DNA of 64,000 bases, taken from contig JALVZQ010000004.1 of NCBI GenBank assembly GCA_027037535.1, positions 1 to 64,000 of the forward strand. The letters are read 5' to 3'. Both the position numbers and the translations under genes were made by a program. Below the pieces are notes generated by a model. It did no database searches and had not been told where the DNA came from. It saw only the letters and a list, made by a program, of their open reading frames with translations. This stretch comes from Acidilobaceae archaeon (GTDB lineage Archaea > Thermoproteota > Thermoprotei_A > Sulfolobales > Acidilobaceae). Shown here in pieces: positions 16,322 to 41,282 of the stretch; position 1 is the stretch's first letter, and the number at the start of each line of letters is the position of its first letter.

Positions 16322-16635
16322 TCTACCTCCTTCATGGATTCTAATCAAATCATTGATCAAAGGTTAAAGGAATCGAGTCTGATCCACGACGACAAACCTG
16401 GCTAATTATATATTTCAAAGACTCGCTCTAGTGATGGACTAGCAGAAACCTGATAATCTCGAGGACCTTATTGGCTTTTGATTTATAACTCCTAGGCTTG
16501 GCCCAAACAAGATATAAGGTAAATGAGCTATTTATTAGTTATTTCTAACTTTGGTATGCAGTCGAGCACTCTATTATTACAACGTTTTAATTTGGAAGAG
16601 TAGCGGTATACAAATAGTAGGGGTCGACGGTATCT

Positions 16636-25718: not shown

Positions 25719-27491
25719 TTATCTTGCTCCCAATAATCCAAGCTTAAATATGGCAAACGACGAGATAACAGCTATAGCTAATACGCTTATGGCTATTAGA
25801 GTTTTTAGGTCACCGTTCCCGTTACTGGGCGTCACCTGTTGTTGTCCCTGGCTTGTGCTGGTTACTGTAATGGTTATTGAAGCAGTATTGTAACGGTTGG
25901 CAACGTCTACTGCCTTGACTATTATCTCGTGTGTTCCTGGCTGTAGGTTTAGACTATAGCTTGTAGCAGTAGGTGGGAGATTTACAGTTTGGGTTCCGTC
26001 TATTATTAAGGTTATTTTGGCGATATCGGCTGATCCTTTTTGTATTTTCCATCTCACGGTTATGTTTTCGTTTTCTATTGTAGCTCCCTGTTGCGGATAT
26101 AGTATTGTTACTGTGGGGGGTGTTGTAGGCGTTGTCTTTGATACTAGTGCCACGTATAGGCCTCCGCCTAGATCCGGATGTACTGTGATGGAGGGGTAAG
26201 TGGTCCATAGTGTTACTGTGTAGCTCTCAGGATCTATTCGGTAGAACCCTTTCGGATACCATACGTTCAGATCCCTGTCCCATACGAGGGGTATCAAGTC
26301 TTTCATGTTTAGTCCGAGTTCTTGAAGCTTTTCGGGATCTACGTGGAAGTGTATTCTGAAGCCGCCTGTCCCCTCAGTATTGTTTACGACAAGGAGTATT
26401 GGGCCTATTAATACATAGCCTGGAGGTGAGCTACCCGGGACCTGTACGTTATTATATACCCATAATTTAGTTTTACCGGTGACATGGGATGCTTCGATCG
26501 TAATATTCGGGTCTCTTAGGTCGAGACTATAGTTGAATCTATCTATTATCTTGTATATTGTGGGTGTTCCTGGATCTTCTACGTAGATTATTGAAGTTCC
26601 TATAAGGGCATCATGTATTACATACGTGCTCCCGGGAACAGGCATTTCAATGCTCATCTCGTATGTTAGATTATGCACGCCAGGTTGTAAATCCATAGTG
26701 TTTATCAACGGGAAACTGCTAGGGCTCCAGGGCCAGTCTCTCCCGGGGCTATAGGTCTGACTGCCGGATTCTCTAATTAGTTGATTGTTGTCGAGTGCTA
26801 GTATTATGGTCCAGTTTAGTATTGTCTGGTTTGCCATGTTGAGGAGATCGCATGGAGTAGGAGTACCTGTAACATTATCGGGTACATTGGATAAATCACA
26901 TGGCCAATAATAGTTGGGTATACCTCCTACGAAGCGGAACTCTTCTCCCTTAATATAATGTGCCCCGTTTCTCGGAAAAATAATTATGACGGAGGGATGC
27001 ATGTGATCTGGGCGAGTGACCGTTAAATTAACAGTCGTTTTAGCGCCAAGAGTGTCCTCAGCTATTAGAGTAAGAGTTATACTGTTTACTTGTTCTCCTG
27101 CTCTCTCACTATATATTTCGAAGAATGTGTTGATCCAATAGCCGCCTGTATAGAGTGTCGTATTGTATATGCCACCGGGATAAATAACTGCAAAAGGATC
27201 CAGGGGCTGTAATGGTACCATGAAGACGCCTGGAATACCGAATGACGCGTTTGCTATGCCATCAGGATCGTAAATCTTCACGAATAGGTCGAACATTTCA
27301 TTTATCTCTTCGTTCCAAGTAGGTGCAATTATTTTTACGAGGGGCGGACTATTATTTGCATCGGCTGGCCCTTCTAGATAGAGGCTTTGGTGGTGTACGG
27401 CATCGTCAACTGACAGTATCGGAGTAGTTAAAACTATGCCCATTAGGGGGAATACAATGATAAACATAATAATACTGGTGACAAGCTTCAT
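25719..27491 (-). CDS. Anchored, N-glycosylated surface protein (paralogue of 14645-16321)
   Basis: A 590-aa protein: signal peptide at 1-25 and C-terminal membrane anchor LIAISVLAIAVISSFAIFKL. In between lie the same modules in the same order as the paralogue at 14645: YDPDGIANASFGIPGVFMVP, YYWPC near the middle, YVEDPGTPTIYKI, WDRDLNVWYPKGFYRI and ILYPQQGATIENENITV. The cores align throughout while loops and stalk differ. Many N-glycosylation sequons. GGTGC lies 8 nt before the ATG. Role unknown; probably a cell-envelope pair. Confidence 0.82.
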   Translation of the reverse strand: MKLVTSIIMFIIVFPLMGIVLTTPILSVDDAVHHQSLYLEGPADANNSPPLVKIIAPTWNEEINEMFDLFVKIYDPDGIANASFGIPGVFMVPLQPLDPFAVIYPGGIYNTTLYTGGYWINTFFEIYSERAGEQVNSITLTLIAEDTLGAKTTVNLTVTRPDHMHPSVIIIFPRNGAHYIKGEEFRFVGGIPNYYWPCDLSNVPDNVTGTPTPCDLLNMANQTILNWTIILALDNNQLIRESGSQTYSPGRDWPWSPSSFPLINTMDLQPGVHNLTYEMSIEMPVPGSTYVIHDALIGTSIIYVEDPGTPTIYKIIDRFNYSLDLRDPNITIEASHVTGKTKLWVYNNVQVPGSSPPGYVLIGPILLVVNNTEGTGGFRIHFHVDPEKLQELGLNMKDLIPLVWDRDLNVWYPKGFYRIDPESYTVTLWTTYPSITVHPDLGGGLYVALVSKTTPTTPPTVTILYPQQGATIENENITVRWKIQKGSADIAKITLIIDGTQTVNLPPTATSYSLNLQPGTHEIIVKAVDVANRYNTASITITVTSTSQGQQQVTPSNGNGDLKTLIAISVLAIAVISSFAIFKLGLLGAR

Positions 27492-27837
27492 TTATCTAGC
27501 ACCATAGAAGACTCCAACAGGATCAGAGACTTATGTTAGTTGAGTTTGATCGATAGAATCATACTCTCAATAGAAGCATGATATTCCTGCTTAATATTTT
27601 GGAATTTTTCCATATGTTCTTTCTAAGAAGATTAAGACAATTATCGTAACATGTTTTGTATTTACTATCCTCTACCTGGAAACCTCCTGTGCTGGCTTTA
27701 CTTATTTGAATCACGAACCAATCATTATAAACTTAAAAAGGCTTTGATAAATCCGGCTACGGCCGCTTTTCCAATAGAATGCTTGAAGCTGTTTTTGCTG
27801 AGAGTTTTGAAGCCTATGCTTGAAGAGGCTTGGTAAT
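27492..27837. other. Intergenic region without a recognised feature
   Basis: About 345 nt. Two alternative frames over 27700-27830 look weakly coding (for example LKLFLLRVLKPMLEEAW), which could be debris of the integrated element whose integrase fragment follows. Nothing firm. Confidence 0.35.
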
Positions 27838-28191
27838 ATGGAGACTGACACCGTATTAGAGTGTATCAACTATAAGGCTTCAAAAATGGGCTTCAAAATG
27901 TACATATTTGTTAAAAAGGTCGAATCAAACGGTAAAACGTATCATTATCTCGTAATCGAACAATACGATCCCAGAACAAAACGCAAAAAGGTCTTACTAC
28001 ACCTTAGCCTAAAGAGAATTCTAGAGGCGTTCAAAAATGAAGTGGATGATAAGGCGTTAGCCTCTTGGTGCGGGGGGTGGGATTTGAACCCACGCAGGCC
28101 TACGCCATCGGGTCCTCAGCCCGACCCCTTTGACCAGGCTCGGGCACCCCCGCGTCCAGTCCTGTATAATATAATAGTAGGGTTATTTTAG
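27838..28191 (+). pseudogene. SSV-type integrase N-terminal fragment, int(N), running into the tRNA-Leu att site
   Basis: From ATG 27838, residues 1-77 have the layout of the N-terminus of SSV-type integrases: a basic strand pair (MYIFVKKVESNGKTYHYLVI), KRKKVLLHLSLKRILEAF, then the frame enters the tRNA-Leu gene antisense and reads WCGGWDLNPRRPTPSG. In SSV1 integrase the att site is likewise inside the gene, and its tRNA-derived part reads PPGFEPG. The catalytic half int(C) with the tyrosine is not in this window. The translated tail past about 28070 is the tRNA and not a real protein part. Confidence 0.55.
28069..28153 (-). tRNA. tRNA-Leu (GAG)
   Basis: Minus-strand tRNA of 85 nt with acceptor GCGGGGG/CCCCCGC and discriminator A. 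The anticodon stem TCGGG/CCCGA encloses loop CTGAGGA, so the anticodon is GAG. A long class II variable arm (TGGCGTAGGCC region) and T arm CGTGGGTTCAAATCCCAC complete it. No intron and no encoded CCA. Upstream on the minus strand lie AT boxes (forward 28164-28174 and 28183-28190), either of which could be the TATA element. It is the target of two rearrangements: the int(N) fragment on its 3' side and the duplication starting in its T loop. Confidence 0.95.
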
Positions 28192-28210
28192 GCTTGTGCC
28201 AACCAGAAAG
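28085..28210. repeat. 126-bp direct repeat, left copy
   Basis: Identical base for base to 33036-33161 (constant offset 4,951). It covers the tRNA-Leu from the T loop to its 5' end plus 57 nt of upstream DNA. At the left edge the sequences differ (GTGGGATT against GAGAATA), and at the right edge they diverge after CCAGAAAG. The pair frames the AT-rich island. Confidence 0.95.
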
Positions 28211-28350
28211 TATTATGCTTGCCTAGATATTTGCTAGATGAAGCAAATAGTAATTATCCGCATTTCTATTCTTCACGAACTATGAACGGTGCACCGGCAT
28301 CACAGTAGATAGTATACATAGAACCTCGCATATTTGACGTTGGCTATTGT

Positions 28351-28396
28351 TAATAAATAGTATAATATAATTAAAATTATATTATACTATTTATTA
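28351..28396. repeat. Perfect 22-bp inverted repeat with 2-nt spacer
   Basis: The left arm TAATAAATAGTATAATATAATT cannot be written whole here; in parts it is TAATAAATAGT followed by ATAATATAATT. AA is the spacer, and the right arm 28375-28396 is its exact complement. It lies about 120 nt after the last gene of the island's minus-strand operon and close to the left repeat. It could act as a cruciform, transcription terminator or replication/recombination site. The rest of 28211-28513 shows nothing else. Confidence 0.85.
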
Positions 28397-28513
28397 TTTT
28401 TAACTCACATTAACTAGCAATATAGGAAAATTACTGTATCTGGAATGTAAGTTTAAAATATAGGTTCGTTCTATAAAAAGAGTTATAAATAATTTTTATT
28501 TTTTATTTAAATG

Positions 28514-29218
28514 CTATTCGTTTACTGTTCTTTTCACTAGTTTACCGGCCCTTAGTTCGATAATAGCTTCACTTAGTTCTAATAATTTAGTGTCGTGCGT
28601 TGCTATAATTATAATACGCTTTCCATTGTTTAGTTCCTTAATGAGTTCTCTAACAATGTTGGTACTCTCCCAATCTAGGTTCGAGGTTGGCTCGTCAAAT
28701 AATATGAGGGATGATGACAGTGCTTTAATGTATGTTCTTATAAAATTTACTTTTTTCTTTTCTCCGCCACTTAGTTCGCTTGGTAGTTTATTTTTCAAAT
28801 TATATATATTTAATTTTTCCATTAGCCTGTTCACAGTTTCATCAGATATATTAATAAACTTTCTAAATAATAAAATATTATCTAGTACATTTAAATAATC
28901 AATAAAAATATCTTCCTGCAACATATAAGCAATTGCCTCACGCCTAATACCTGCCCTTACCCGCTCGTCTAAACTATACAGACTTATAGTCTCATTTAAT
29001 AAGACTCTTCCCTGAGAAGGTACTCGTATCCCCGCTAATACATCAAGCAACGTTGTTTTACCAGCTCCATTTGGTCCAATCAATACATAAATTCCAGGTT
29101 TAAACTCTAGGTTAATGGAGTCTAGAACCCTTATATTTCTCGGATATACCACAGCAAGATTTTCAACTCTAACATGTTTAATAAACGTAATAGGTGAACC
29201 AGAGCTTTTCGTCCTCAT
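28514..29218 (-). CDS. ABC transporter ATPase of the island
   Basis: A 234-aa ATPase. Walker A GPNGAGKTT is at about 48-56, the Q-loop is YMLQED, the signature LSGGEKKK, Walker B SLILFDEPTSNLD and the switch IATHD. The FDEPTSNLD form fits the MacB/LolD and bacteriocin-export groups that partner FtsX-like permeases. The ATG overlaps the permease stop (ATGA), so the two subunits are translationally coupled. AT-rich codon use sets it apart from the chromosomal genes to its right. Confidence 0.93.
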   Translation of the reverse strand: MRTKSSGSPITFIKHVRVENLAVVYPRNIRVLDSINLEFKPGIYVLIGPNGAGKTTLLDVLAGIRVPSQGRVLLNETISLYSLDERVRAGIRREAIAYMLQEDIFIDYLNVLDNILLFRKFINISDETVNRLMEKLNIYNLKNKLPSELSGGEKKKVNFIRTYIKALSSSLILFDEPTSNLDWESTNIVRELIKELNNGKRIIIIATHDTKLLELSEAIIELRAGKLVKRTVNE

Positions 29219-31818
29219 TCTACCTCACCCATATATTCTCTTATAAACTTAGATATGTTCCGTAAATGGTAAACTAGGATACTTGACGTCATTATTAGTA
29301 ATGATGCTATTACCAATAACAGATAGATATTTAATTCCGAAGAAAGAAACCTTGGTAGTGCGTTTTTAATATATAGGATCAAGGCTACTATAATAAATAG
29401 TAGTCCGAGAACATATGAAATTAGTTCTTCCTTAATGAGACTCCTGGAGTCATAGCCTTGAGAAATTAACAGTTTAATTTTACCCTTGATAATAGACTCT
29501 AACTCATGCTTATACAAATATATTGCAATGATCATTGTAATACCACTAAAAACAACGAGTGGTAGTACCAATGATCCCAGACTAACATATAGTATAGACT
29601 GTATATTCTTTTCAAGTAGCTTACAATCAACGTAGTAGCTTCCATGTAACAATAATGGATATTTCTCCAAGATTTTATTTATAGTATTTGAATTATTCAT
29701 AATAATACCTAATTTTCCCGTTATCAGATATTTCTCAGATATGTTTAATTTTGTAAATTTACTCCATCTTACTACGAGAGCGTCACTAGAATAGTCCAAT
29801 CTTGCCATATATACAAGTATAGGATACTCATGAGGATTTTCATCGAAAAACCATAAGGGAAATCCCCTATCTACAATCTTCAGGTTGTTTATTTTGAAAT
29901 GAATAGGTTCTGTCGGAACAATTACATCAGAATAGTCGAGCCATACTTCTAATTCTGAAGTATTATTAAACGCTGAATATATTTTATCCCTATATCGTGA
30001 AGATGTGGATACAAATAGTACCCAGTCATAATTCTTATATCCGAGCTTATCTAGTAAATCGTCAGAAACTATAATAAGTGGTAGCTTTACCGAGGCTTTT
30101 TTAACAGTGATATTCATTCCTGGACTAGGATTTGAGATATATTCATTAGAATCAACATATGTTATAAAGTTCACATTGTTTACTCTTTTAACTAGGAAAT
30201 ATGTTACAAAATACCATTCATTTAAATCCATCTTTTTGAGATAATTAGTCAAGTTATATATGGACTCAGAGGTACTGGGTGAAAATATTATTCCCTGTTG
30301 GCAAACATTTAAGGGGACGTATTCAGATACTAATTCTTGTTTACCAAATGTTAGTGCGTATGATCCAATAACTGGAGATATTATTGAGAAGAATATTATC
30401 AATACTAGTAATGCTGTTCCCTGGTAGCCGGTAATTTTCGACATTTTATAAAGTATATTGTTAAGTGTTTTTGACCTAAGAATTAAGAATAAAACTATGG
30501 AGTATAATATTCCGTACAAGTATCCGTTAACAATTATTTCTCCTATAAAGGAAGCTGCAATACTTTTGATAATAATTATCTGTATTATTAAGATGATTAT
30601 TACTAGATATTTTGTTTTTAAATTGTATTTATTATACCTTCCACGTAATTTTTTATTTAATTCAAAGTCTATTCCTACGATATACATGCTTATTATAGAT
30701 CCAAGAAGAATTGATTGCACGTTAAATATATTTTTAAAGTCCGGATCTAATATTGGTGATACCTTGTTAGAAATATATATTGTTATTATCATAATAATTA
30801 ATGAAATTATTGTCATGATATGTAATTTATCGAATAACTTTGTAATATCATACCCATAACTAGCAAATAACTTGTAGATCTTCTGCTTCCTTGGTACATA
30901 CGTCTTGCTGAATATCATAAATACATACATTAAAACAAATAAAGTCATAACAATAAGAATTACTTCTACATATATAAGCATGAATTCACTGTTTTCTAAA
31001 TTAGCTTTGAGCGAAGTTGTCACGAGATCTACAACAACATAATTCACGTTATAAGACCTGAGTTGTCTAATTAATTCATTTTTGAAACCCTCTATAATGT
31101 TTACGCTTGAAGGTATGTTATTTGTTTCTTTGTTAAATGCGTACATTATTATAGTCACTGCAGGACTAGTACTATTTCCTTTATTATAATAATATCTAGT
31201 TAAAAATTCGTCAACATGTGCACCTATATAAAGATAGGTATTCTGAGCTATTCCAAGCGCTCTGACGGCACTATATATGGTACTTGTATATTTATTATCA
31301 TAATTCTCTATAATAATAACAGATAAGTTCTTATAGCCTAGAACTAATGATAAATTACCATGAGTATACCTAATATTAGTTAAATTGTCACTAACATTGG
31401 ATTCTAGCTTTATCAAACAATCTGTAGCATTACATATAGATCCTAGGTTGAAGCTAGATGTGGTAAAGATCAGGGATTTTGAAGGTACTAGTACTATAAC
31501 GGACTCGTTATCTAAAACTCCGTGAAATCCATATATTAATCCATTCTTTATGTAAAAATCTAATAGATGATCATTAGCATACTGGTTCGATAATTCTATT
31601 ATACTATTCAATATTCTTAAGTCATCAGTTTTGTTCAAGGAATCAGTATATCCTATAATCAAGTGAGGCTTGTCTAATGAGAGGATTCTATCATATTCCT
31701 TGTTTAATTGATAACTAAAATAAATACTTTCAAAAACGAAAATAATTGAGAACAATAAACCAATCACTAGATATAGGAATATTCCTGAAAAAAAGATTTT
31801 ATAGGACTTTGGTGACAT
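29215..31818 (-). CDS. Large two-unit FtsX-like permease (bacteriocin-associated type layout)
   Basis: About 867 aa from ATG 31818, chosen because GGTGGTGGAG lies directly upstream; ATG 31839 would add MRKRWWR. One membrane helix is at the N-terminus, then an outside domain of about 250 residues. A block of about six membrane helices follows, then a second outside domain (about 495-755) and three C-terminal helices including a VLPLVVFSGITMIIAIY-like segment. This double unit resembles large permeases found with bacteriocin exporters. No catalytic motif is visible. Operon order: secreted protein, this permease, ATPase. Confidence 0.78.
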   Translation of the reverse strand: MSPKSYKIFFSGIFLYLVIGLLFSIIFVFESIYFSYQLNKEYDRILSLDKPHLIIGYTDSLNKTDDLRILNSIIELSNQYANDHLLDFYIKNGLIYGFHGVLDNESVIVLVPSKSLIFTTSSFNLGSICNATDCLIKLESNVSDNLTNIRYTHGNLSLVLGYKNLSVIIIENYDNKYTSTIYSAVRALGIAQNTYLYIGAHVDEFLTRYYYNKGNSTSPAVTIIMYAFNKETNNIPSSVNIIEGFKNELIRQLRSYNVNYVVVDLVTTSLKANLENSEFMLIYVEVILIVMTLFVLMYVFMIFSKTYVPRKQKIYKLFASYGYDITKLFDKLHIMTIISLIIMIITIYISNKVSPILDPDFKNIFNVQSILLGSIISMYIVGIDFELNKKLRGRYNKYNLKTKYLVIIILIIQIIIIKSIAASFIGEIIVNGYLYGILYSIVLFLILRSKTLNNILYKMSKITGYQGTALLVLIIFFSIISPVIGSYALTFGKQELVSEYVPLNVCQQGIIFSPSTSESIYNLTNYLKKMDLNEWYFVTYFLVKRVNNVNFITYVDSNEYISNPSPGMNITVKKASVKLPLIIVSDDLLDKLGYKNYDWVLFVSTSSRYRDKIYSAFNNTSELEVWLDYSDVIVPTEPIHFKINNLKIVDRGFPLWFFDENPHEYPILVYMARLDYSSDALVVRWSKFTKLNISEKYLITGKLGIIMNNSNTINKILEKYPLLLHGSYYVDCKLLEKNIQSILYVSLGSLVLPLVVFSGITMIIAIYLYKHELESIIKGKIKLLISQGYDSRSLIKEELISYVLGLLFIIVALILYIKNALPRFLSSELNIYLLLVIASLLIMTSSILVYHLRNISKFIREYMGEVE

Positions 31819-31865
31819 TCTCCACCACCTTTTTCTCATGAGTCGTTAACAGCATATCCTTAATT

Positions 31866-32732
31866 TTACGGTTGGTTGCTTACAATGTCGATATATGTGT
31901 CATATCCTTCCCAGTTCCACCAGGTTCCCGAGCCGGAGCCAGTAGTTCCATCACCGAGTATATATGGTGTAGTCACATACCATATATTACCCTCTGGATC
32001 GTAGTATTGGGCAGTGATTTTAATGTGATATTGTGGAAGATAATAGCGGTTATTGTATAAGTAGTTACTATATATAGTTGGTTGTAATGACGCCACACAC
32101 CACCAAGGATTGTCTAACTCCCATCCCCATGTAGATTGATAATTTACCTCTGCTTTTCCAAGCCATAGTACACCATTAGATATATATTTATTTATGCTTG
32201 TAGATGCAGACGATACGTCAGATAGAGTAACACTGACACCGACATTAACATATTGACCACCGACATTAACACCAAACGACAGATCTACGGGCGATCCGCT
32301 CGCACTACTGTCAACATACCATCCCTGGGTCCCGAATTTACTTATATCGCTACTCTGCATATTGCGATGGCTCCATTTAAAGCCTATATATATAGTGTTT
32401 TTACCACAATCGCCGCACCATACACTGGATGATCTAACATACCATTGATAGCTACTTCCTTGCTTCCATACATAAGCTGCTACTGGCGGCTGTGCCACAT
32501 AACTATCCAATTTATTAGGGTTGTATAATAAATATGCAAGTGTAGCTGCTGAGTGAGTCATCTCAACACCATGATCTTTAGGCCATAGATCATACCATTC
32601 AATAGCAGTCGATAGTCCAGGATTTACAGAATAATAGTTCTGGTGATAGAATGCATAGGTAATCATCGGTAAATACACAATGATTATTCCTAGGGCTATT
32701 ATGTATGGTAGTAATTTGATTATTCTTACCAC
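31866..32732 (-). CDS. Secreted aromatic-rich protein, first gene of the island operon
   Basis: A 288-aa protein starting GTG, with GGGGTGA 5 nt upstream. Residues 1-27 form a signal peptide (LLPYIIALGIIIVYLPMITY, then AFYHQNYY). The mature part is very rich in Y, W, S and G, with a CGDCG motif and a lone WWC that may form disulphides, and beta-rich SFGVNVGGQYVNVGVSVTL. No family recognised. Located 27 nt before the permease gene and exported by Sec, it could be a secreted toxin, surface ligand or transporter-associated binding protein. I prefer a secreted effector, but this is inference. Confidence 0.7.
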   Translation of the reverse strand: MVRIIKLLPYIIALGIIIVYLPMITYAFYHQNYYSVNPGLSTAIEWYDLWPKDHGVEMTHSAATLAYLLYNPNKLDSYVAQPPVAAYVWKQGSSYQWYVRSSSVWCGDCGKNTIYIGFKWSHRNMQSSDISKFGTQGWYVDSSASGSPVDLSFGVNVGGQYVNVGVSVTLSDVSSASTSINKYISNGVLWLGKAEVNYQSTWGWELDNPWWCVASLQPTIYSNYLYNNRYYLPQYHIKITAQYYDPEGNIWYVTTPYILGDGTTGSGSGTWWNWEGYDTYIDIVSNQP

Positions 32733-32761
32733 GATCTCACCCCTTTGTTTCTATCGTTTAT

Positions 32762-32789
32762 TTTATAAACAAGCAAACTTGTTTATAAA
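32762..32789. promoter_or_regulatory. Operator-like palindrome at the island operon promoter
   Basis: TTTATAAACAAG and CTTGTTTATAAA form a perfect 12-bp inverted repeat with spacer CAAA. The TTTATAAA half closest to the gene sits about 30 nt before the GTG start of the secreted protein, the right distance for a TATA box with a near-leaderless transcript. Binding of a dimer here would block the promoter. Confidence 0.65.
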
Positions 32790-32799
32790 TCTTTTGCTC

Positions 32800-32821
32800 T
32801 TTTAAAATATATATTTTAAAA
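32800..32821. repeat. Perfect 22-bp AT palindrome upstream of the island operon
   Basis: TTTTAAAATAT followed by its own complement ATATTTTAAAA, without spacer. It lies 10 nt beyond the operator-like palindrome, possibly a second regulator site. The remaining 32822-33035 is very AT-rich and shows no gene. Confidence 0.7.
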
Positions 32822-33035
32822 CATATTTTCTTGGAGATTCTGGTCGAAATAATAATATGAACTATTAGATATTCAAATATCTAAATAAAAATATTAAATT
32901 AATTCTCCATTTATTATCAATTGTTTTTGATAACAATAATTGTAATCCGTCCTAACGATGCTGTTATTAAATTTCTTCTATGTTAATCTAAAAAATAGTA
33001 AGAACTAGTAGTAAGTTAATGAGACCGAGAGAATA

Positions 33036-33104
33036 TGAACCCACGCAGGCCTACGCCATCGGGTCCTCAGCCCGACCCCTTTGACCAGGCTCGGGCACCC
33101 CCGC
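33036..33104 (-). pseudogene. Truncated tRNA-Leu (GAG), 3' end missing
   Basis: The 5' 69 nt of the tRNA-Leu at 28069-28153 are repeated perfectly, from the acceptor 5' strand through the anticodon and variable arm to the T loop. The rest of the T arm and the 3' acceptor strand are replaced by unrelated sequence (minus strand TTCATATTCTCTCGG). It cannot fold at the acceptor, so it is not functional, though its promoter region is intact and a transcript may be made. Confidence 0.9.
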
Positions 33105-33161
33105 GTCCAGTCCTGTATAATATAATAGTAGGGTTATTTTAGGCTTGTGCCAACCAGAAAG
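33036..33161. repeat. 126-bp direct repeat, right copy
   Basis: Identical to 28085-28210. After its right end the sequence goes directly to the ribosome binding site and ATG of the gene at 33179, so this copy probably sits in the original chromosomal context on the right side. Confidence 0.95.
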
Positions 33162-33178
33162 CATAATGGTGCTTGGAG

Positions 33179-33559
33179 ATGTCAGGGTTTGAGAAGGCGG
33201 TTCATGTCAGGGTTTCTAGTCTTGGTGATCTTGTTCGTCTAGCGTCAACACTAGCTAGTCGTATGATTGTGATGCCTGTGTATAGGGTTTTTAGAGATGG
33301 TAGGACAGTGTATTTTCTCCAGATGATGTATAAGGACTATTACAAGTACTATGGTCTCCCCATAGTGTATTATTATGTCGAGGAGGATGCCTCGAAGAGC
33401 GCAGAGGAGGCAAAGTATATTCTTGCGAAGAGCGATGAGACTGGGGAGAAGATAGAGATCTCTAGGAAGACTAGGCCTGGATGGCTTGCTATACCCTTGG
33501 TGAACCTGGAGGAGGTTCCCAGCTATCTGGACGAGGAGGTATTACTGGGCAGGAGCTAA
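33179..33559 (+). CDS. Conserved archaeal hypothetical protein
   Basis: A 126-aa soluble protein (FEKAVHVRVSSLGDLVRLAS, VYRVFRDGRTVYFLQMMYKD, YYYVEEDASKSAEEAKYIL). No domain recognised; the alternating strands look like an alpha/beta fold. ATG 33179 has GGTG 8 nt upstream. It is divergent from the right-hand tRNA promoter copy. Confidence 0.75.
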   Translation: MSGFEKAVHVRVSSLGDLVRLASTLASRMIVMPVYRVFRDGRTVYFLQMMYKDYYKYYGLPIVYYYVEEDASKSAEEAKYILAKSDETGEKIEISRKTRPGWLAIPLVNLEEVPSYLDEEVLLGRS

Positions 33560-33630
33560 ACACCTATGAGTAATACTCATTGATATAATATATAGACAAA
33601 TGTGACAGCCTTTTCCCTTATATAGTTGGC

Positions 33631-33945
33631 CTAAGCATCCTCAGCTACGGCCTCGCCCTCGACATGTGATCCCAGTGCTTCCAGTGACTGTATTGCCTGA
33701 TAGAGCTGGTCAGCTATACTTGATCTCTCAGAGGCTTTCCGCAGTATAACGCCTGCATCGGTCACCTGGTATATCTTATACGTACCTTTCTTGTAGAGTG
33801 GAGCGATAAGCCCTAGCTCTTCCAGACACTGAAACGCGGCTAGTACCTTGTAGCGTGGTGCTCCTAGGTGGGAGACTGCGTCTCCTGGTGATAGTGGTCC
33901 TTCCTTCTCTAGGAGTTCTAGTATCATATAGGCTAGTCCTCTCAT
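33631..33945 (-). CDS. Winged-helix DNA-binding protein
   Basis: A 104-aa protein with MILELLEKEGPLSPGDAVSH as helices 1-2, LGAPRYKVLAAFQCLEELGL as recognition helix and YKKGTYKIYQVTDAGVIL as the wing, a PadR/MarR-like winged helix. A short helical C-terminus (LYQAIQSLEALG) may dimerise. It is convergent with the 33179 gene. Target unknown. Confidence 0.82.
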   Translation of the reverse strand: MRGLAYMILELLEKEGPLSPGDAVSHLGAPRYKVLAAFQCLEELGLIAPLYKKGTYKIYQVTDAGVILRKASERSSIADQLYQAIQSLEALGSHVEGEAVAEDA

Positions 33946-34120
33946 CGACTATGCACCCATTAAGATCGTTATGAGCCTTATCCTTGTTATAAAAGAGAGA
34001 GGAGTGTATTACCAATAGTATTACTCCCAGCGTAGGGATACGATCCTAGAATAGCCATTGTTTTTTCAAAACATGTTTTTTCCTGTAACTCCATTAAACC
34101 CATCGCGGGTGTAGGGGCTA

Positions 34121-34627
34121 GTGAAATATCCTAAGCATGGACTAGGAATAATAGTGCGGAGCCGATGCATAATCGTCAACGAAGAAAACAAGGTACTAGT
34201 ACAGAGAGAAAAGAACGGAGTCTATAGTATCCCTGGGGGAAGAGTAGAGTTCCTCGAGAGCATACCATACACCGTGATAAGGGAAATGAGAGAAGAAGCA
34301 GGTATCGAAGTCATACCAGAGAGATTAGTATACGTTGTAGAGACGCTAAACGAGAGAAAGGGAAAGCCGAGACACGAGCTCCTATTCTACTTCAAGTGTC
34401 AGCATCTCAGCGGAGAGCCCAGGAGAGAATTCAAGAATATGATGTTTCAATGGGTGGATCCCCTGGAGGTGAAAGATAACTTCTGGCCCTCAGGACTAGC
34501 AGAGAAGCTGGCCGAAGACCTACCAGACTTTAAGCACAGCTACTTCCTAGTCTATGTCGATGAGAAACTCAAATTCATAAACACGTTCACGGATCCAATC
34601 CTATTCAAGTATCTCGGAAGCCACTAG
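34121..34627 (+). CDS. Nudix hydrolase
   Basis: A 168-aa protein. The Nudix box GGRVEFLESIPYTVIREMRE followed by EAGIEV (residues about 44-69) matches G-x5-E-x7-REUxEExGU. VQREKNGVYSIP before it is the usual strand. The substrate could be a nucleoside diphosphate derivative or ADP-ribose; not decidable. The start is GTG. Confidence 0.9.
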   Translation: MKYPKHGLGIIVRSRCIIVNEENKVLVQREKNGVYSIPGGRVEFLESIPYTVIREMREEAGIEVIPERLVYVVETLNERKGKPRHELLFYFKCQHLSGEPRREFKNMMFQWVDPLEVKDNFWPSGLAEKLAEDLPDFKHSYFLVYVDEKLKFINTFTDPILFKYLGSH

Positions 34628-34693
34628 ACAAGCATCTAGTCTTTACTCCTATCCCTTTATTCTTATTATAGAGTATGAGCGGTCCCCATGAGC

Positions 34694-34778
34694 TTGTTCA
34701 GCATCAAGCCCTATCGGCCCCTCCAAGGGGCCGATACGGCTAAGTTCCCGGATTCCCGGTCATCCCGCCAATGAACAA
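34694..34778. ncRNA. Candidate structured RNA; GC-rich element, copy 3
   Basis: TTGTTCA (34694-34700) pairs with TGAACAA (34772-34778). Inside, TATCGGCCCCT and AGGGGCCGATA (34712-34736) make an 11-bp stem with a CCA loop. On the minus strand the order GGCGGGATGACCGGGAAT, then TTAGCC, then the hairpin resembles the elements at 366-426 and 5655-5716. The rest of 34628-34993 holds nothing else. It could be a small RNA or a transcription terminator; direction uncertain. Confidence 0.4.
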
Positions 34779-34993
34779 TAAAAGAAATACCGTGACTAAT
34801 ATAGGATCCGCGAACAAAGTATCGTGTTACGACATTGTCTAGGGGAGAGTCAATGTTACTCTACACTAGTTAGCAATGATATCGTCATAGTATATGTCTC
34901 CTATATCATTCTCTTGTTAAACCCGAGCCAGTATAATAATACATGATATCCGCGATACTAGGAATATTACAATGACAGGACTTAGGTGATAGC

Positions 34994-35653
34994 TTGGTAC
35001 ACAGCAAATACATAGATAAAGAACTACTATACTGGGCCAAGAGAAAGATAAACATTGACATGTTATTAGATTCTCTAAGACGGCATGTGATAGCATGCAC
35101 CATCTGCAGACTTAAATGTATTGATCCTCCAGCAGTAACCACCGGTATGCTATATGACCTAGGATATTCCCAGTACGATGTAAGAGTTTTCTGGTCAAGG
35201 CTTCCAAGAGGAGAATACGGGTTCACTATTTACCAGTTGAAAGAAGGCGAGATAAGAATACTCTTCGAGCATAATGTGGGGAAAGTCCAAGAATACTACT
35301 GCGACGATGTACGGATTCCAGTAGACGATTATGACGCGGAGAAGAGACCGACTATTTACACCCCCAATAGCCATAGGCTATTCGTTAGATTCCATGGAAA
35401 TCTAGGAGGCAACCTAATCAGAGTAAACGTGGTTAGAATAGCTAAAATAGTAGAATCATACGAGCCTGGTCTTCCCGAAGAACTATTGGATGTTATAAGG
35501 CAAGTCTATTGGGGAAAGCGACCAAAGGAGGATCTAGCTCGTCTCATAGTGAGTGAGCTCTCTAGATGGAGGAATATAGTTAGCCTCCTGTTTCCTCACT
35601 TGCCTAAAGACGATGCTGGATATGTGGAAAGAATGCCCATTCTAAGAAGGTAA
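34994..35653 (+). CDS. Hypothetical protein
   Basis: A 219-aa soluble protein from TTG 34994, 3 nt after GGTGAT. The N-terminal part contains two cysteine pairs in ACTICRLKCID that might bind metal. The centre is beta-rich (GEYGFTIYQLKEGEIRILFE, HRLFVRFHGNLGGNLIRV) and the C-terminus helical. No family recognised. It stands alone. Confidence 0.7.
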   Translation: MVHSKYIDKELLYWAKRKINIDMLLDSLRRHVIACTICRLKCIDPPAVTTGMLYDLGYSQYDVRVFWSRLPRGEYGFTIYQLKEGEIRILFEHNVGKVQEYYCDDVRIPVDDYDAEKRPTIYTPNSHRLFVRFHGNLGGNLIRVNVVRIAKIVESYEPGLPEELLDVIRQVYWGKRPKEDLARLIVSELSRWRNIVSLLFPHLPKDDAGYVERMPILRR

Positions 35654-35781
35654 ATAGGTAAAACCTTGTTGATGTAACTATAGTATTTTTATCTACATGT
35701 AGTAGTTTACTTTATAGCACCGTAATCTACAACTAGCTGTATCTCTTCTATAATAAATTACCTTCAACACGGTGGTGCTCC

Positions 35782-37278
35782 TTGACGAAACACACACAAG
35801 AAAACAAAGAGGGGAAAGGAGATGTTGGAAGGCTGCTGGCAGGTATAAGACTCCTCTTCAATAATCCCATAACACGCTCATACTTGAAAGCTTCTACAAG
35901 ACGAGTTATCTGTCGTTATAAGGAAAACGGTGATAGAGAGGCCACGGTCATCTACCATGCTCTAAGTAAGCTTGCTGGAGAACAAGTCTATAGTTGTCCT
36001 GTGACCGCACGATTCCTGGGAGCTCTTATAACTAGCACTATTAAGATGGGTGTCAAGCTTCTAGGCGGCAACATCGAGTCGGCTAGTAAGGCACTAGAGG
36101 ATCCCGCGGTTAGAAGGGGAATATCCCTTGTAATAGAGAGCCTGGCCAAATACGGTGTAACAGTCCCACAAAGTCTCTCAGCGCCATTCCTTATAGTATG
36201 GAACTTCACGAACATGTGTAACCTAAGATGTATACACTGTTATCAGCGTGCCGATAAACCAGGCCCCGACGAGCTATCTCTAGAAGAGAAGCTAATGGTA
36301 GTTGACCAGCTGGACAAGGCAGGGGTAGCGGCAGTAGCACTGAGTGGAGGAGAGCCTACGATTCATCCCCACTTTCTCCGCATAGTAGATGAGCTGAATA
36401 ATCGTGGAATATATGTGGCTGTTGCAACCAACGGTACCCGTTTCGCCGACAAAGAATATCTTATGAAAGCTAAACGGCATGGCCTACGATACGTAGAGGT
36501 AAGCGTTGACAGTCCTAGACCAAGCGAACATGACAAGTTCAGGGGAGTACCTGGGGCCTGGAACAAGGCAATAAGAGCCCTAGAGAATGCTGTAGATATA
36601 GGCATAAGCAATGGAATGGCGACAACGATAACCAAGCTTAACAAAGACCAGATACCCGAGATACTCGACCTAGCCGAGGAAATAGGTGTGCAGAGAGTAA
36701 TCTTCTTCAATTTCGTACCCACAGGCAGAGGAGAAGACTATGCATGGCTCGACCTGACTCCAGAGGAAAGAGAAGAAGTCCTAAGAACACTATACAACGA
36801 GATGAAGAATAGGAAAATAGAAATCATAAGCACTGCTCCACAATACGCTAGAGTAGTACTCCAACTGAGTAGCGGTAGAGAAGTGGCACCGACACACTTC
36901 TATGTAGGAAACAACAGGATAATGAAGAGCCTAGCAGAATTCATCGGAGGATGCGGAGCCGGAAGAATATACGCAGCTATCCAGCCAAACGGAGATGTTA
37001 CACCATGCGTATTCCTACCCATAAAGGTCGGTAACCTGAGAGAAACTACCTTCAACGAGATCTGGTGGAACAGTCCTCTATTAAATGCACTCAGAAACAG
37101 GGATAACCTCAAAGGATACTGTGCCAAGTGCCCGTATAGGAATATATGTGGCGGCTGTAGGGCGAGGGCGTACGCATACTACAGAGACCCGTTCGCACCC
37201 GACATAGGGTGTATACTTAACAAGGATGCATGGGATAAGCTTCCAAAAAAGAAAATACGCCTAGTCCAGCACCACTAG
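35782..37278 (+). CDS. Radical SAM/SPASM-domain enzyme
   Basis: A 498-aa enzyme. The radical SAM cluster motif C-x3-C-x2-C is C146/C150/C153 (TNMCNLRCIHCYQ), followed by ALSGGEPTIHPHFLRIVDEL. The C-terminal SPASM region CGAGRIYAAIQPNGDVTPCV and YCAKCPYRNICGGCRARAY supplies cysteines for auxiliary clusters. A helical N-terminal extension of about 130 residues is unusual. The fold fits the AhbC/D, NirJ and peptide-modifying groups. No precursor peptide or tetrapyrrole gene lies nearby, so the reaction is open. Confidence 0.9.
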   Translation: MTKHTQENKEGKGDVGRLLAGIRLLFNNPITRSYLKASTRRVICRYKENGDREATVIYHALSKLAGEQVYSCPVTARFLGALITSTIKMGVKLLGGNIESASKALEDPAVRRGISLVIESLAKYGVTVPQSLSAPFLIVWNFTNMCNLRCIHCYQRADKPGPDELSLEEKLMVVDQLDKAGVAAVALSGGEPTIHPHFLRIVDELNNRGIYVAVATNGTRFADKEYLMKAKRHGLRYVEVSVDSPRPSEHDKFRGVPGAWNKAIRALENAVDIGISNGMATTITKLNKDQIPEILDLAEEIGVQRVIFFNFVPTGRGEDYAWLDLTPEEREEVLRTLYNEMKNRKIEIISTAPQYARVVLQLSSGREVAPTHFYVGNNRIMKSLAEFIGGCGAGRIYAAIQPNGDVTPCVFLPIKVGNLRETTFNEIWWNSPLLNALRNRDNLKGYCAKCPYRNICGGCRARAYAYYRDPFAPDIGCILNKDAWDKLPKKKIRLVQHH

Positions 37279-37294
37279 CTCAGATATTCTAAGT

Positions 37295-38629
37295 CTAGAG
37301 ACGGGTGTCCTTTAGCGAGAATGGTATTGCAAGTACAAGGAGTATCTGTGTGATAGTCAATAGTAGAGAATAATAGACATAGACCAGTGGATCCACTGTA
37401 TTAACAGAGAGAGTGTTAAGTAGAGACGCTACTGTTTCATTAGGTTGCTGTATGTGGACTTTGGCCCAGAAACTAATAGGGTAGAGTAGTGGCCAGAGCC
37501 CAGCTATCAGGCCCGTTACGGTTGCAAGTGTTTTCACTACTTTACTCCTTGCCGCGAACATTATTATTGATGCGAATGCAACGGTCGGAACTAAGTATTG
37601 GTGATTTACTCTCCAGTAGGTCGCCGTATATACTATGTAGGAGGCCAGAACCGGTACAAGGGGATCCCTTGTTCTCCAGACAGCATAAAGGACGAGTAGA
37701 TACAATGGCATAAACAGGACTGGCCAAAGCCTTAGGATATATGAGGTATCTATGCCCACATAATTCCATGCATAGAACGCTATTGAAAATATACCGTTAA
37801 AACTGTATACTACCGGTACACTGTAGCTCGGAGACGACACGCTTTTCGCTGCTCTCATTAAGAAGGAAAGCGATTCGGGCTCCGCGAATATATATGGAGA
37901 GAATGCAACGGCCAATGGTAGAAATACAAGATACAATGCCGTTAAGAGCTTATTGAAGCCGTATGATCGATAATGATATAGTAACATTGCTAATACAGCA
38001 TATACCAGTAGTGGCTTAATGGCCAGGCTAACGCCCATGAGTATCCATCCAGCCCACTTCCTACGATTGTAGAGGTAGACATAGACTCCGGCTAAGAAGA
38101 AGGCTAAAGGAATCTGATCGAACATGCCATAGATGCTCGAGATATATATGACCATTGGGTTAAGATAGTACAAGGTCATCGCAAGGAGTCCCTTTCTCCT
38201 GCTACTAGTATACTTTTCTACTATCATATAGATGAGCACAGCCGAGACTATGTCGAAGAAAATATAGATTGTTTTAACAGCTATTATCCAGTCAGGAGGA
38301 GCATAAACATTGTATGATCCGTCCACTACAGTTCTTTCAACTGGTGAAGGAGCAAAGAGTCGGAGGACTCCAAGTATAATAATGAATAATGGTCCGTAGA
38401 CGTAGGGCCATGGATACGCCCATCCTAGCTCTTTCCAGGCAGTGGCATCACAATAAGCATAGAAGTGAAAGTGGTATTCTAAGAATGTATCGGCAAATCC
38501 AGCAAACTGTGGGATATCGCTACCACTAGTATAGGGTGCAACTATGATTCGTGGAATCAGTCCTAGGAGGACGAGTATTATGAGCCAGAGTCGACGGCTA
38601 TCTAGTAGTGTTTTCATTGTATTTCTCAA
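37295..38629 (-). CDS. GT-C type membrane glycosyltransferase (GT87/mannosyltransferase-like)
   Basis: A 444-aa protein with about eleven membrane segments. The first outside loop has the acidic TSGSDIPQFAGFADTFLEYH region, and YPWPYVYGPLFIIILG is typical of polyprenyl-phosphate-sugar-dependent GT-C enzymes. KTIYIFFDIVSAVLIYMIVE and YYLNPMVIYISSIYG are further family-like stretches. The start is TTG with GGTGCC 6 nt upstream. It probably transfers a sugar from a lipid carrier on the outside face. Confidence 0.8.
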   Translation of the reverse strand: MRNTMKTLLDSRRLWLIILVLLGLIPRIIVAPYTSGSDIPQFAGFADTFLEYHFHFYAYCDATAWKELGWAYPWPYVYGPLFIIILGVLRLFAPSPVERTVVDGSYNVYAPPDWIIAVKTIYIFFDIVSAVLIYMIVEKYTSSRRKGLLAMTLYYLNPMVIYISSIYGMFDQIPLAFFLAGVYVYLYNRRKWAGWILMGVSLAIKPLLVYAVLAMLLYHYRSYGFNKLLTALYLVFLPLAVAFSPYIFAEPESLSFLMRAAKSVSSPSYSVPVVYSFNGIFSIAFYAWNYVGIDTSYILRLWPVLFMPLYLLVLYAVWRTRDPLVPVLASYIVYTATYWRVNHQYLVPTVAFASIIMFAARSKVVKTLATVTGLIAGLWPLLYPISFWAKVHIQQPNETVASLLNTLSVNTVDPLVYVYYSLLLTITQILLVLAIPFSLKDTRL

Positions 38630-38793
38630 TCTATTGGCACCTGCATCCCCAGGATATTAACCTAGTTATATTATAGCATTGTATAGAGATCCCCGTATAT
38701 TGTAGTGGTCTTGACTCATAAAATCATTAGGTCAGACTATTGATTTTTACAATCAACCGTAACCTGGTATCATTGGTGTTTGGAGGAGGCTGG

Positions 38794-38868
38794 TGGGGCC
38801 GCGGGGATTTGAACCCCGGACCACGAGGGCCCAAGCCTCGCATCCTAGCCAGGCTAGACGACGGCCCC
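38794..38868 (-). tRNA. tRNA-Pro (TGG)
   Basis: Minus-strand tRNA of 75 nt with acceptor GGGGCCG/CGGCCCC and discriminator A. The anticodon stem CGAGG/CCTCG has loop CTTGGGC, so the anticodon is TGG. T arm CCGGGGTTCAAATCCCCG. No intron, CCA not encoded. Confidence 0.96.
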
Positions 38869-38960
38869 TCATGTATCCATAGATGTTTTCTCCTCGGTGA
38901 GGGTTTTAAATCATATGGCGTTGCTCAGTATTTCTCCATATAATACCTGTACTGAACCGT

Positions 38961-40049
38961 ATGAATATATGGGTGTCTGCTTCATTGGAGTGCGAATACG
39001 ATATTGTTCTCAACAGGCCTGTCGGAGAAGATCTTCTCGAATACCTTGAGGGATTCAAGGTTTATGTACCTGATAGACCCGTGTCGAGCGAAGAACTCTG
39101 GGACATTGTTTCAAGATCCCGCGTTTATATTAATTGGTTCAGCCACGTAGACAAGAAACTCCTAGAGAAGAAGGGATGCCTAAAGCTAATAATTGCACGG
39201 AGCACAGGCTACGACTACATTGATGTGGAGAACGCAGAGAAAGAAAATGTATGCATAGCTAATCAGCCTGAACTCATAAACGAGGCAGTAGCAGAATTCG
39301 CCGTCGGAGGAATTCTCGCCGCAGCAAGAATGATAGTACACGGACACCTATACATGCCTAAGTGGGGGGAGAAAGGATGGCCAACTCATCTAAGGGGCCT
39401 CATAATAAGGGGTAGAAGCGTAGGACTTCTAGGAGCAGGAAGAATAGGACAGAGCATAGCTTACAAACTAGCAGGACTAGGCGCAGGCCCCTTTTACTAT
39501 TATAGCAGATCAAGGAAACCAGGCCTAGAGGCAGCGCTGGGAGCAAGATTCTTGAGCCTCGAAGACCTATTCAAGCATTCAAGCATCCTAGTTAATAGCT
39601 TACCGCTCACTAGGATAACCAAGGGGCTAGTCACGAAGGAGCTACTATTGAAGCTACCATATAACGCGATATACGTTAACATAGGTAGGGGACAGACAGA
39701 AGAACCCATGGCCATAGCCGAGGCAGCTAGGGAGAGGCCCGATCTCTACTTTGTACTCGACGTCCATCCAGCAGAGCCATTGCCTTCAGGCGATCCAAGA
39801 TATGAGTTGCTGGATAACCCACATGTAATCATGACACCGCACTTCGCCGGATACTCCGATGAATCATACCTAGGAACAACAATACTCAGCTTCCTCCAAG
39901 CAAAAGACTACCTGGTGAAAGGATGTGTCTGGAACCCTGTTAACAAGGCCTGCAGGATGTGCTCCAGCCAAAGCATAGGCCTGGACGAGGCACTGAGCAT
40001 TGTCAGGCGCCAGCTAGCGCTGAGAGAAATAATGGATCTACTACCATAA
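38961..40049 (+). CDS. D-isomer-specific 2-hydroxyacid dehydrogenase
   Basis: A 362-aa oxidoreductase. The N-terminal substrate domain has LKLIIARSTGYDYIDVENAE. The NAD domain has SVGLLGAGRIGQSIAYKLAG (GxGxxG). YVNIGRGQTEEP and MTPHFAGYS carry the expected catalytic glutamate/histidine surroundings. The last about 45 residues, Cys-containing (NPVNKACRMCSSQS), extend beyond the usual end. Probable 2-keto acid reductase; it may act with the enolase-superfamily enzyme downstream. Confidence 0.88.
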   Translation: MNIWVSASLECEYDIVLNRPVGEDLLEYLEGFKVYVPDRPVSSEELWDIVSRSRVYINWFSHVDKKLLEKKGCLKLIIARSTGYDYIDVENAEKENVCIANQPELINEAVAEFAVGGILAAARMIVHGHLYMPKWGEKGWPTHLRGLIIRGRSVGLLGAGRIGQSIAYKLAGLGAGPFYYYSRSRKPGLEAALGARFLSLEDLFKHSSILVNSLPLTRITKGLVTKELLLKLPYNAIYVNIGRGQTEEPMAIAEAARERPDLYFVLDVHPAEPLPSGDPRYELLDNPHVIMTPHFAGYSDESYLGTTILSFLQAKDYLVKGCVWNPVNKACRMCSSQSIGLDEALSIVRRQLALREIMDLLP

Positions 40050-40163
40050 CATATAGCATGGGCCGATGACGAATACTCCCCAGAAGGATCCCCTAGCATG
40101 CGAGATGAACGTGATTCCTTTAACCGAGGCCTCAATCCTTATCATTAGCGGAGGAGTCCAGGG

Positions 40164-41282
40164 ATGAAGATAACACAACTAGAACTATACCATGTGGCCA
40201 TGGAGCTCAAAGGGGACTTCGAGACAAGCTTTGGAAAAACAAGGATAAGGCACGGGATCCTTGTACGCCTCGTCGATAATGAAGGATACGAGGGATGGGG
40301 AGAAATAGTAAGTGGGGACGGACCATGGTATAGTTATGAGACCATAGGTACAGCCTGGCATATTGTGAGAGACTACCTGGTAAAGTTCCTAGTCGGAGAA
40401 ATATCGCCTGCTGAGTTCCAGAAACGTTCTGCTCGTATAAGAGGCCATAACATGGCAAAGGCAGGAATAGATGAGGCACTATGGGATCTATACGCTAGAC
40501 GCATGGGAAAACCATTATACGAAGTCATAGGCGGCGAGCCTAGACCCGTAAAAGTAGGGGTAAGCATTGGCATAAAGAGAAGTATAGACGAACTCCTTTC
40601 AGTAATAGCCAAGAGACTCGAAGAAGGATACGAGCGGATCAAACTCAAAATAAAGCCAGGCACCGATATCCGAATAGTCGAAGCCATCAGGAGAGAATAC
40701 CCCGACATACTCCTACAAGTAGACGCAAACGCCGCATACAGTCTCCAAGACCTCGAAACCTTGAGATCACTAGACAAATACGATCTACTCATGATAGAAC
40801 AACCCCTGCACTACGATGACTTGCTAGACCACTCCATACTCAAAACCAAGATAAAGACACCGCTCTGCCTAGACGAAAGCATCAAATCACCAAGACACGC
40901 TAGATACGCTCTGCAACTAGAAAGCACAGACATCATAAACATAAAGCCAGGCCGGGTCGGAGGAATAACACTAAGCCTCGAGATCCACGACTTATGGAGC
41001 CAAAAAGCAGGGAGACCAGTATGGATAGGAGGAATGCTCGAGACAGGAGTAGGAAGAGCAATTCTAGTAGCCCTAGGAACCCTACCCGGAGTAAGATACC
41101 ACAGCGACATAAGCGCAAGCGACCGGTACTATGAGGAGGACATCATAACCGAGCCATGGACTCTACATAAAGGATCAGTAATAATACCACGCGACAAGCC
41201 AGGAATAGGAGTAGAAGTAGACATGGACAAGCTAGAAAAATACACCTTAAGAAAAGAAACCATCGACATAGAGAATCCTTGA
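40164..41282 (+). CDS. Enolase-superfamily enzyme (MLE/racemase subgroup)
   Basis: A 372-aa protein of the muconate-lactonising subgroup. KLKIK (160-164) supplies the base lysines, metal ligands are D187 (QVDANA), E212 (IEQPL) and D237 (LDES), and K261 (INIKPGRVGG) is the second base. The capping domain is at 1-125. These positions fit N-acylamino acid racemase, o-succinylbenzoate synthase or dipeptide epimerase; no menaquinone genes lie nearby. GGAGGAG precedes the ATG. Confidence 0.87.
   Translation: MKITQLELYHVAMELKGDFETSFGKTRIRHGILVRLVDNEGYEGWGEIVSGDGPWYSYETIGTAWHIVRDYLVKFLVGEISPAEFQKRSARIRGHNMAKAGIDEALWDLYARRMGKPLYEVIGGEPRPVKVGVSIGIKRSIDELLSVIAKRLEEGYERIKLKIKPGTDIRIVEAIRREYPDILLQVDANAAYSLQDLETLRSLDKYDLLMIEQPLHYDDLLDHSILKTKIKTPLCLDESIKSPRHARYALQLESTDIINIKPGRVGGITLSLEIHDLWSQKAGRPVWIGGMLETGVGRAILVALGTLPGVRYHSDISASDRYYEEDIITEPWTLHKGSVIIPRDKPGIGVEVDMDKLEKYTLRKETIDIENP

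Follow-up and report, generated by a model that had tools for sequence, protein, structure and literature searches.

Integration at the 5' half of a tRNA-Leu gene has a precedent in Thermococcus nautili, where the integrases of pTN3 use that half of the gene, as stated in passages of a review of archaeal tyrosine recombinases (PMC8371274) and of PMC5495485. A supplementary legend of the latter gives an attachment site (att) of 41 bp, with the tRNA parted from its own promoter, and according to the abstract of the same paper, Int-pTN3 still carries out homologous-recombination-like reactions with segments down to 104 bp in length.

The locus described here belongs to an Acidilobaceae genome of eight contigs (1.65 Mb), and the window, which is the whole stretch of DNA that was analysed, is the first 64 kb of the 71-kb contig C4. 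As in the pTN3 case, to the extent that these passages describe it, the target is a tRNA-Leu gene, its 5' half is duplicated as a direct repeat, and an intact tRNA is restored, here at one end of the island. The features of the locus are as follows.

27853 to 28068, plus strand: int(N), the N-terminal fragment of a split SSV-type integrase (78% amino acid identity to the int(N) on contig C8)
28066 to 28153, minus strand: intact tRNA-Leu(GAG), the sole GAG isoacceptor found in the genome (ARAGORN; Rfam 57.3 bits)
28085 to 28210, no strand given: left copy of the 126-bp repeat (direct-repeat comparison)
28154 to 28210, minus strand: left promoter segment of the repeat, 57 nt, with a TATA-like stretch picked out by eye (identical to 33105 to 33161)
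28514 to 29218, minus strand: ABC ATPase, 234 aa (PF00005, E 7.2e-23; best NCBIfam model TIGR03608, L_ocin_972_ABC)
29215 to 31839, minus strand: large ABC permease, 874 aa (role taken from its hydrophobic helices and the adjoining ATPase)
31866 to 32732, minus strand: 288-aa protein with an N-terminal hydrophobic helix (a homologue, 33-34% identical, lies directly before the permease homologue in genome G139)
33016 to 33035, minus strand: perhaps the decayed remainder of the right tRNA's 3' end (9 of 20 positions match and 6 of 20 are transitions)
33036 to 33161, no strand given: right copy of the 126-bp repeat, made of a dead tRNA-Leu 5' part (33036 to 33104) and promoter (33105 to 33161) (repeat identity; 20.2 bits)
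33179 to 33559, plus strand: conserved gene on the right flank, a marker of the native site (its frame is open from 33173; present in 40 of 48 genomes of the family)

The two copies of the repeat are 100% identical over 126 nt, and they are the sole direct repeat in the 64-kb window with a perfect stretch of at least 25 nt. When extended to 136 bases (28082-28217 and 33033-33168) the copies are 98% identical, at a spacing of 4951. Each holds tRNA positions 1-69, from the 5' end to the T loop, plus the 57 nt upstream. The insert between them has a GC content of about 0.28-0.37, compared with 0.41-0.48 on its right side and about 0.38-0.44 on its left. A first-pass annotation of the sequence had already described the identity of the copies, the extent of the copied part, the completeness of the left tRNA and the AT-richness of the insert, and each of these descriptions is confirmed. 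Its further statement that the right tRNA lacks its 3' end stands in part: the copy scores 20.2 bits against a cut-off of 29, but judged from the letters at 33016-33035 it may have decayed instead of having been cut at the T loop. The resemblance of those 20 nt to the tRNA 3' end is weak evidence, given that about 2% of the 20-mers of the island, taken as a null, match equally well. If the signal holds, a complete right tRNA was once present, such that a circle or donor with a full tRNA would suffice and a 5'-side integrase would be unneeded. A longer decayed duplication past the repeat finds no support in local alignment of 80 nt on each side, for which 22% and 82% of null scores are as high. 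Five tRNA-Leu genes were found in the genome, one for each anticodon, and the GAG gene occurs at 28066-28153 only. Between the ATPase gene and the left repeat, a perfect 22-bp inverted repeat with a 2-nt loop (28351-28396) is possibly a transcription terminator.

The right-flank gene was used to find the orthologous site in relatives. It gave 40 matches, 30 of which were taken as loci and 28 checked for tRNA-Leu, with the window's own genome and a sister metagenome-assembled genome (MAG, G003) set aside. At 14 of these 28 loci a divergent tRNA-Leu gene lies 58-185 bp from the right-flank gene with no island, which is the empty orthologous site that is looked for in general at genomic islands in tRNA genes; the other 14 have no tRNA-Leu gene inside about 1.5 kb. 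In the window, 74 bp separate the ATG of the right-flank gene from the dead right copy, and therefore it is the right copy that marks the native position. The insertion that had been proposed from the sequence is thus borne out, given the empty sites, the presence of the cassette elsewhere in two relatives (G002 and G063) and a three-gene version in a third genome (G139).

Although the locus shares its target with pTN3, it differs in several respects. The att of pTN3 is 41 bp without the promoter, according to the legend cited above, whereas here 126 bp are duplicated together with the host promoter; the 57 nt upstream belong to the repeat, so that the tRNA is not parted from its native promoter. 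No split integrase, as an int(N)/int(C) pair, was seen at the ends of the island among ORFs of at least 60 aa inspected by eye or by tblastn with SSV-type queries, and the cargo is only 5 kb. Because the promoter is duplicated and no integrase part was found, the island is not classed as pTN3-type.

Site-specific integration from the 5' side, by an integrase that acted in trans or has since been lost, is an unlikely but not negligible account of the repeat. The passages on pTN3 provide a precedent for a site in the tRNA-Leu 5' half, the island is placed 5' of the intact tRNA, and the repeat spans the T loop through the promoter region, which would keep the tRNA expressed. In addition, a late exchange of the island would account for perfect identity free of any homogenisation. 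This account is opposed by the 41-bp att of pTN3 and its tRNA parted from its own promoter, by the lack of an integrase remnant in the island (ORFs by eye and SSV-type tblastn queries), and by the form of the shortened tRNA-Leu fragments found elsewhere. All three such fragments in the window's own genome are 3'-type, as are seven in seven relatives, in which the fragment of G003 is the only 5'-type one; two more tRNA-Leu matches in those seven relatives miss just 10-11 nt of the 5' end. If the 5'-side route were site-specific, the range of archaeal attachment sites would be wider than pTN3. It is doubtful that, in a fuller form of this idea, an integrase-less 5-kb island uses the tRNA-Leu 5' part and promoter as its att, is moved in trans by SSV-type or other integrases, keeps a single-copy tRNA expressed from its own promoter and delivers a cassette for a secreted protein and an ABC exporter.

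The first-pass annotation had also reported that the insert carries no integrase. This is correct between the two copies, where no integrase was seen by eye among ORFs of at least 60 aa and where tblastn with SSV-type int(N) and int(C) matches only the tRNA-encoded part of the right copy, but the int(N) that abuts the left tRNA had been overlooked. This fragment is external to the island, directly 3' of the left tRNA, and its open frame (27820-28191) continues into tRNA-Leu(GAG); the 78% identity to the int(N) of a split element on C8 is taken over 27853-28161, with the tRNA-encoded part included. The int(C) partner on C8 matches structures of the SSV1-type integrase (3uxu, 3vcf and 4dks) as well as PF16795. 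Split SSV-type elements with int(C) are present at tRNA-Leu(TAA) on C8 and at tRNA-Leu(CAA) on C7, with distances of 10.4 kb and 11.8 kb, respectively, from att fragment to tRNA, and a relic is found at tRNA-Leu(CAG) on C3. The tRNA-Leu genes of this genome are therefore a busy integration hotspot, but the repeat of the island is of another type. The locus resembles the SSV-type elements in having int(N) at the 3' end of tRNA-Leu(GAG), with two relatives elsewhere that have int(N), int(C) and an att fragment. In the SSV-type elements, however, it is the tRNA 3' part that is duplicated (corresponding to positions 28066 to about 28122-28127 of the window) and int is present, whereas the repeat of the island is the 5' part with the promoter and the island holds no integrase. 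The island as an SSV-type element in itself was rejected, since the repeated part of the tRNA is positions 1-69, the int(N) fragment is not within the island and there is no int(C) on C4. As a separate observation, the C7 and C8 elements (28400-40310 and 224927-235444; loci L097 and L096) have int(C) fragments that are 96% identical and int(N) fragments that are only about 51% identical, and would represent mosaic integrases at two different tRNA-Leu genes.

An SSV-type element could still have brought or rearranged the island, if tRNA, promoter and cargo left together in an aberrant excision and the tRNA and promoter became duplicated when the element re-integrated at that gene. The int(N) at 27853-28068, the split elements and relic at the TAA, CAA and CAG genes, and the int(N) on the tRNA's other side at the empty orthologous sites of two relatives (G016 and G061, with 64% and 40% identity) are in its favour. 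We regard this as distinctly unlikely, given that searches found neither an int(C) on C4 nor an unpaired one anywhere in the genome, that no int(N) lies beside the right copy, and that homologues of the cassette elsewhere have no flanking SSV-type integrase among the ORFs seen. A gene for an Xer-like recombinase lies about 3.8 kb from the permease in G002; this gene looks chromosomal, because the window genome has a similar one at its own tRNA-Leu(TAA) locus, which is without the cassette.

The age of the structure can be addressed with G003, a MAG whose contig has a stated coverage of 3.1 and begins inside the permease. The permease (92% amino acid identity for the part on that contig) and the right-flank gene (96%) are at the same place in G003. 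The interval between them has lost most of the gene for the 288-aa protein but keeps a tRNA 5' part and promoter in decayed form. The left junction was not found in G003, nor was a GAG or TAG tRNA-Leu among the stretches examined. Given that the right-hand order is the same and that the copy has decayed, the structure is either older than the species split or was passed between species. A fresh insertion, as might be read from the perfect identity, was rejected in view of the same arrangement with its decayed copy. The first-pass annotation had offered an unusual integrase acting in trans at a 5'-side site as one possible route; a reading of the perfect repeat as the mark of fresh or exotic integration on that side finds no support, given the decayed copy in G003 and the printed pTN3 precedent for use of the 5' half.

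Divergence between the window genome (G000) and G003 is uneven along the locus. There are 43 differences in 1138 positions (3.8%) at 30642-31779 and 46 in 197 (23%) at 31780-31978, then 20 in 88 (23%) at 33073-33161, 2 in 17 at 33162-33178 and 17 in 381 (4.5%) at 33179-33559; the intergenic DNA to the right has 101 in 882 (11.5%). The pooled high-divergence stretches (66/285) differ more than the intergenic DNA (101/882; Fisher p 2.5e-6) and more than the flank genes do at four-fold sites (102/677; p 0.004), with p-values that are optimistic because the alignment had been seen before the boundary at 31780 was set by eye. The right copy alone (20/88) exceeds the intergenic DNA (p 0.006) and does not clearly exceed the four-fold sites (p 0.09). 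Divergence at four-fold sites in the permease (4 of 96 sites, from the only part that G003 holds) is lower than in the flank genes (102/677; p 0.002). The locus is therefore a mosaic: the permease part was probably swapped between lineages after the species split, and the DNA between about 31780 and the outer end of the repeat seems to have had a separate past in one genome of the pair, in a comparison that has no outgroup to tell the overwritten lineage from the other.

At a neutral divergence of 0.088-0.15, a right copy that drifted from the time of the split should have gathered about 5.5-9.5 changes of its own over the 126 nt, yet it shows none against the left copy (Poisson P(0) of 4e-3 to 8e-5). 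Later homogenisation would be a better reading of the perfect repeat than fresh insertion. If instead the whole island was exchanged late between species, as the permease divergence of about 4% would allow, then the expectation falls to about 2.4-2.6 changes per 126 nt (P(0) 0.07-0.09), such that the absence of changes would be unremarkable and homogenisation would not be required. Identity above the prediction for neutral decay since the split, together with a tRNA part that is multi-copy, could also be read as an assembly artefact, with the right copy overwritten by the left or chimeric with it. This is very improbable, because the separately assembled G003 shows the same succession of island, tRNA remnant, promoter remnant and gene; for the left junction there is a single assembly.

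We tentatively favour, at a probability of somewhat under one half (about 0.47), a mobile ABC-transporter cassette that was inserted by recombination at the tRNA-Leu(GAG) hotspot, not freshly, and whose flanks were later homogenised. In a first step, the cassette with a copy of the tRNA-Leu and its promoter, carried on a circle or on donor chromosomal DNA, would have recombined with the chromosome. The crossover would lie inside the shared tRNA and promoter sequence, through homologous recombination or through an integrase with relaxed specificity, and would leave a copy of the tRNA and promoter on either side of the cassette. In a second step the right copy would decay, as in G003; in the genome of the window, recombination or gene conversion with the left copy probably overwrote it at a later time. 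Such overwriting would explain both the 126 identical bases and the steps in divergence at about 31780 and near 33161. At the orthologous loci (L031-L058) the anticodon beside the right-flank gene is GAG in 7, TAG in 4 and CAG in 3 of the 14 cases; this variety suggests exchange or switching among tRNA-Leu genes, and the mix is consistent with recombination among tRNA-Leu loci.

Of the three routes suggested in the first-pass annotation, homologous recombination with a circle therefore remains the best candidate, and an assembly artefact is unlikely at the right junction in view of G003. Recombinational entry is countered by the end of the repeat at the T loop, unless the weak decay signal at 33016-33035 is real. 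A passage of PMC5495485 places reported homologous recombination in Thermococcus kodakarensis at 500 bp or more, which is longer than 126 bp, so an integrase with relaxed specificity may have helped. No circle or donor was found in viral contigs, which were searched with few patterns and limited reach, or in phages or plasmids. The permease has no relative by patterns in the viral contigs or by tblastn in phages or plasmids, the 288-aa protein has no relative in the viral contigs, and neither island junction has an exact match there.

The duplication might also have arisen locally, by tandem duplication of the tRNA, promoter and cassette, or by break repair with template switching, followed by deletion and with no mobile circle. 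This requires only the one locus, and in G002, too, the operon is found on the 3' side of a tRNA-Leu gene and is oriented as it is here with respect to the right tRNA copy. A local origin would, however, take two or more illegitimate events, and no second copy of the operon stands beside the left tRNA, which makes it quite improbable. With recombinational insertion of a mobile cassette as the preferred reading, the structure is unusual in form and probably does not reflect a new mechanism. The same reading suggests that, in Acidilobaceae, stretches of near 100 bp at tRNA genes offer recombination a handle, and that the perfection of a repeat is no proof of a recent insertion. On any of these readings, tRNA-Leu genes are used from both sides in a single archaeal genome, by SSV-type elements at the 3' side and by insertion of cargo with a duplicated promoter at the 5' side.

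The three genes of the insert, all on one strand, encode the 288-aa protein, the 874-aa permease and the 234-aa ABC ATPase. Loci of the lactococcin-972 type have a secreted protein, a large permease and an ATPase in a single operon, and a system of that type is defined by matches to models for the bacteriocin, the immunity protein and the exporter. The cassette has the same organisation, and TIGR03608 is the best NCBIfam model for its ATPase as well as for that of G139. The ATPases of the window and of G139 score 133.1 and 121 bits, though, below the cut-off of 254.85, and neither the permease nor the 288-aa protein matches a Pfam or NCBIfam family at E 0.1. With the ATPase alone matching, and below the cut-off, the cassette is not assigned to the lactococcin-972 type. 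In PADLOC the ATPase matched the ATPase parts of many systems, with mad3 as the best, and nothing was returned for the permease or the 288-aa protein. Predicted structures of the 288-aa protein and the permease have mean pLDDT values of 36.1 and 35.8, too poor for a fold search.

The 288-aa protein is probably secreted and, by analogy, could possibly be a substrate or effector of the transporter, in which case the cassette would probably export the 288-aa protein or protect against it. Homologues of the permease occur in 5 of the 229 genomes of the class, the window's own included, and the 288-aa protein in 2 of 229. The three genes have the same order in G139, which belongs to another family of the order, with no tRNA in the 19.5 kb examined. 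In G002 the cassette lies 3' of tRNA-Leu(TAA), and in G063 a remnant of the permease lies beside a VapBC-like pair. The cassette is thus a rare but conserved module, in which a permease and a secreted partner are without a family-model match here.

Several other genes near these loci were noted. At its left end (897-1543) the window contains a VapBC-like pair, which has a relative with 70-78% amino acid identity directly beside the permease remnant of G063 (locus L067, 399-1045); the cassette and the VapBC-like pair may travel in one gene pool. More ABC ATPase/permease-like pairs were seen by eye near the cassette in G002 (L065, 13396-14945) and in G139 (L113, 5248-6945 and 15384-16914), and a small protein nearby in G139 looks, also by eye, like a second secreted relative. 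To the left of the island in the window, two similar secreted-looking proteins of 590 and 571 aa by ORF are encoded at 25719-27491 and 14645-16360; the first has an Ig-like Pfam match, and its likeness to the second was judged by eye from the translations.
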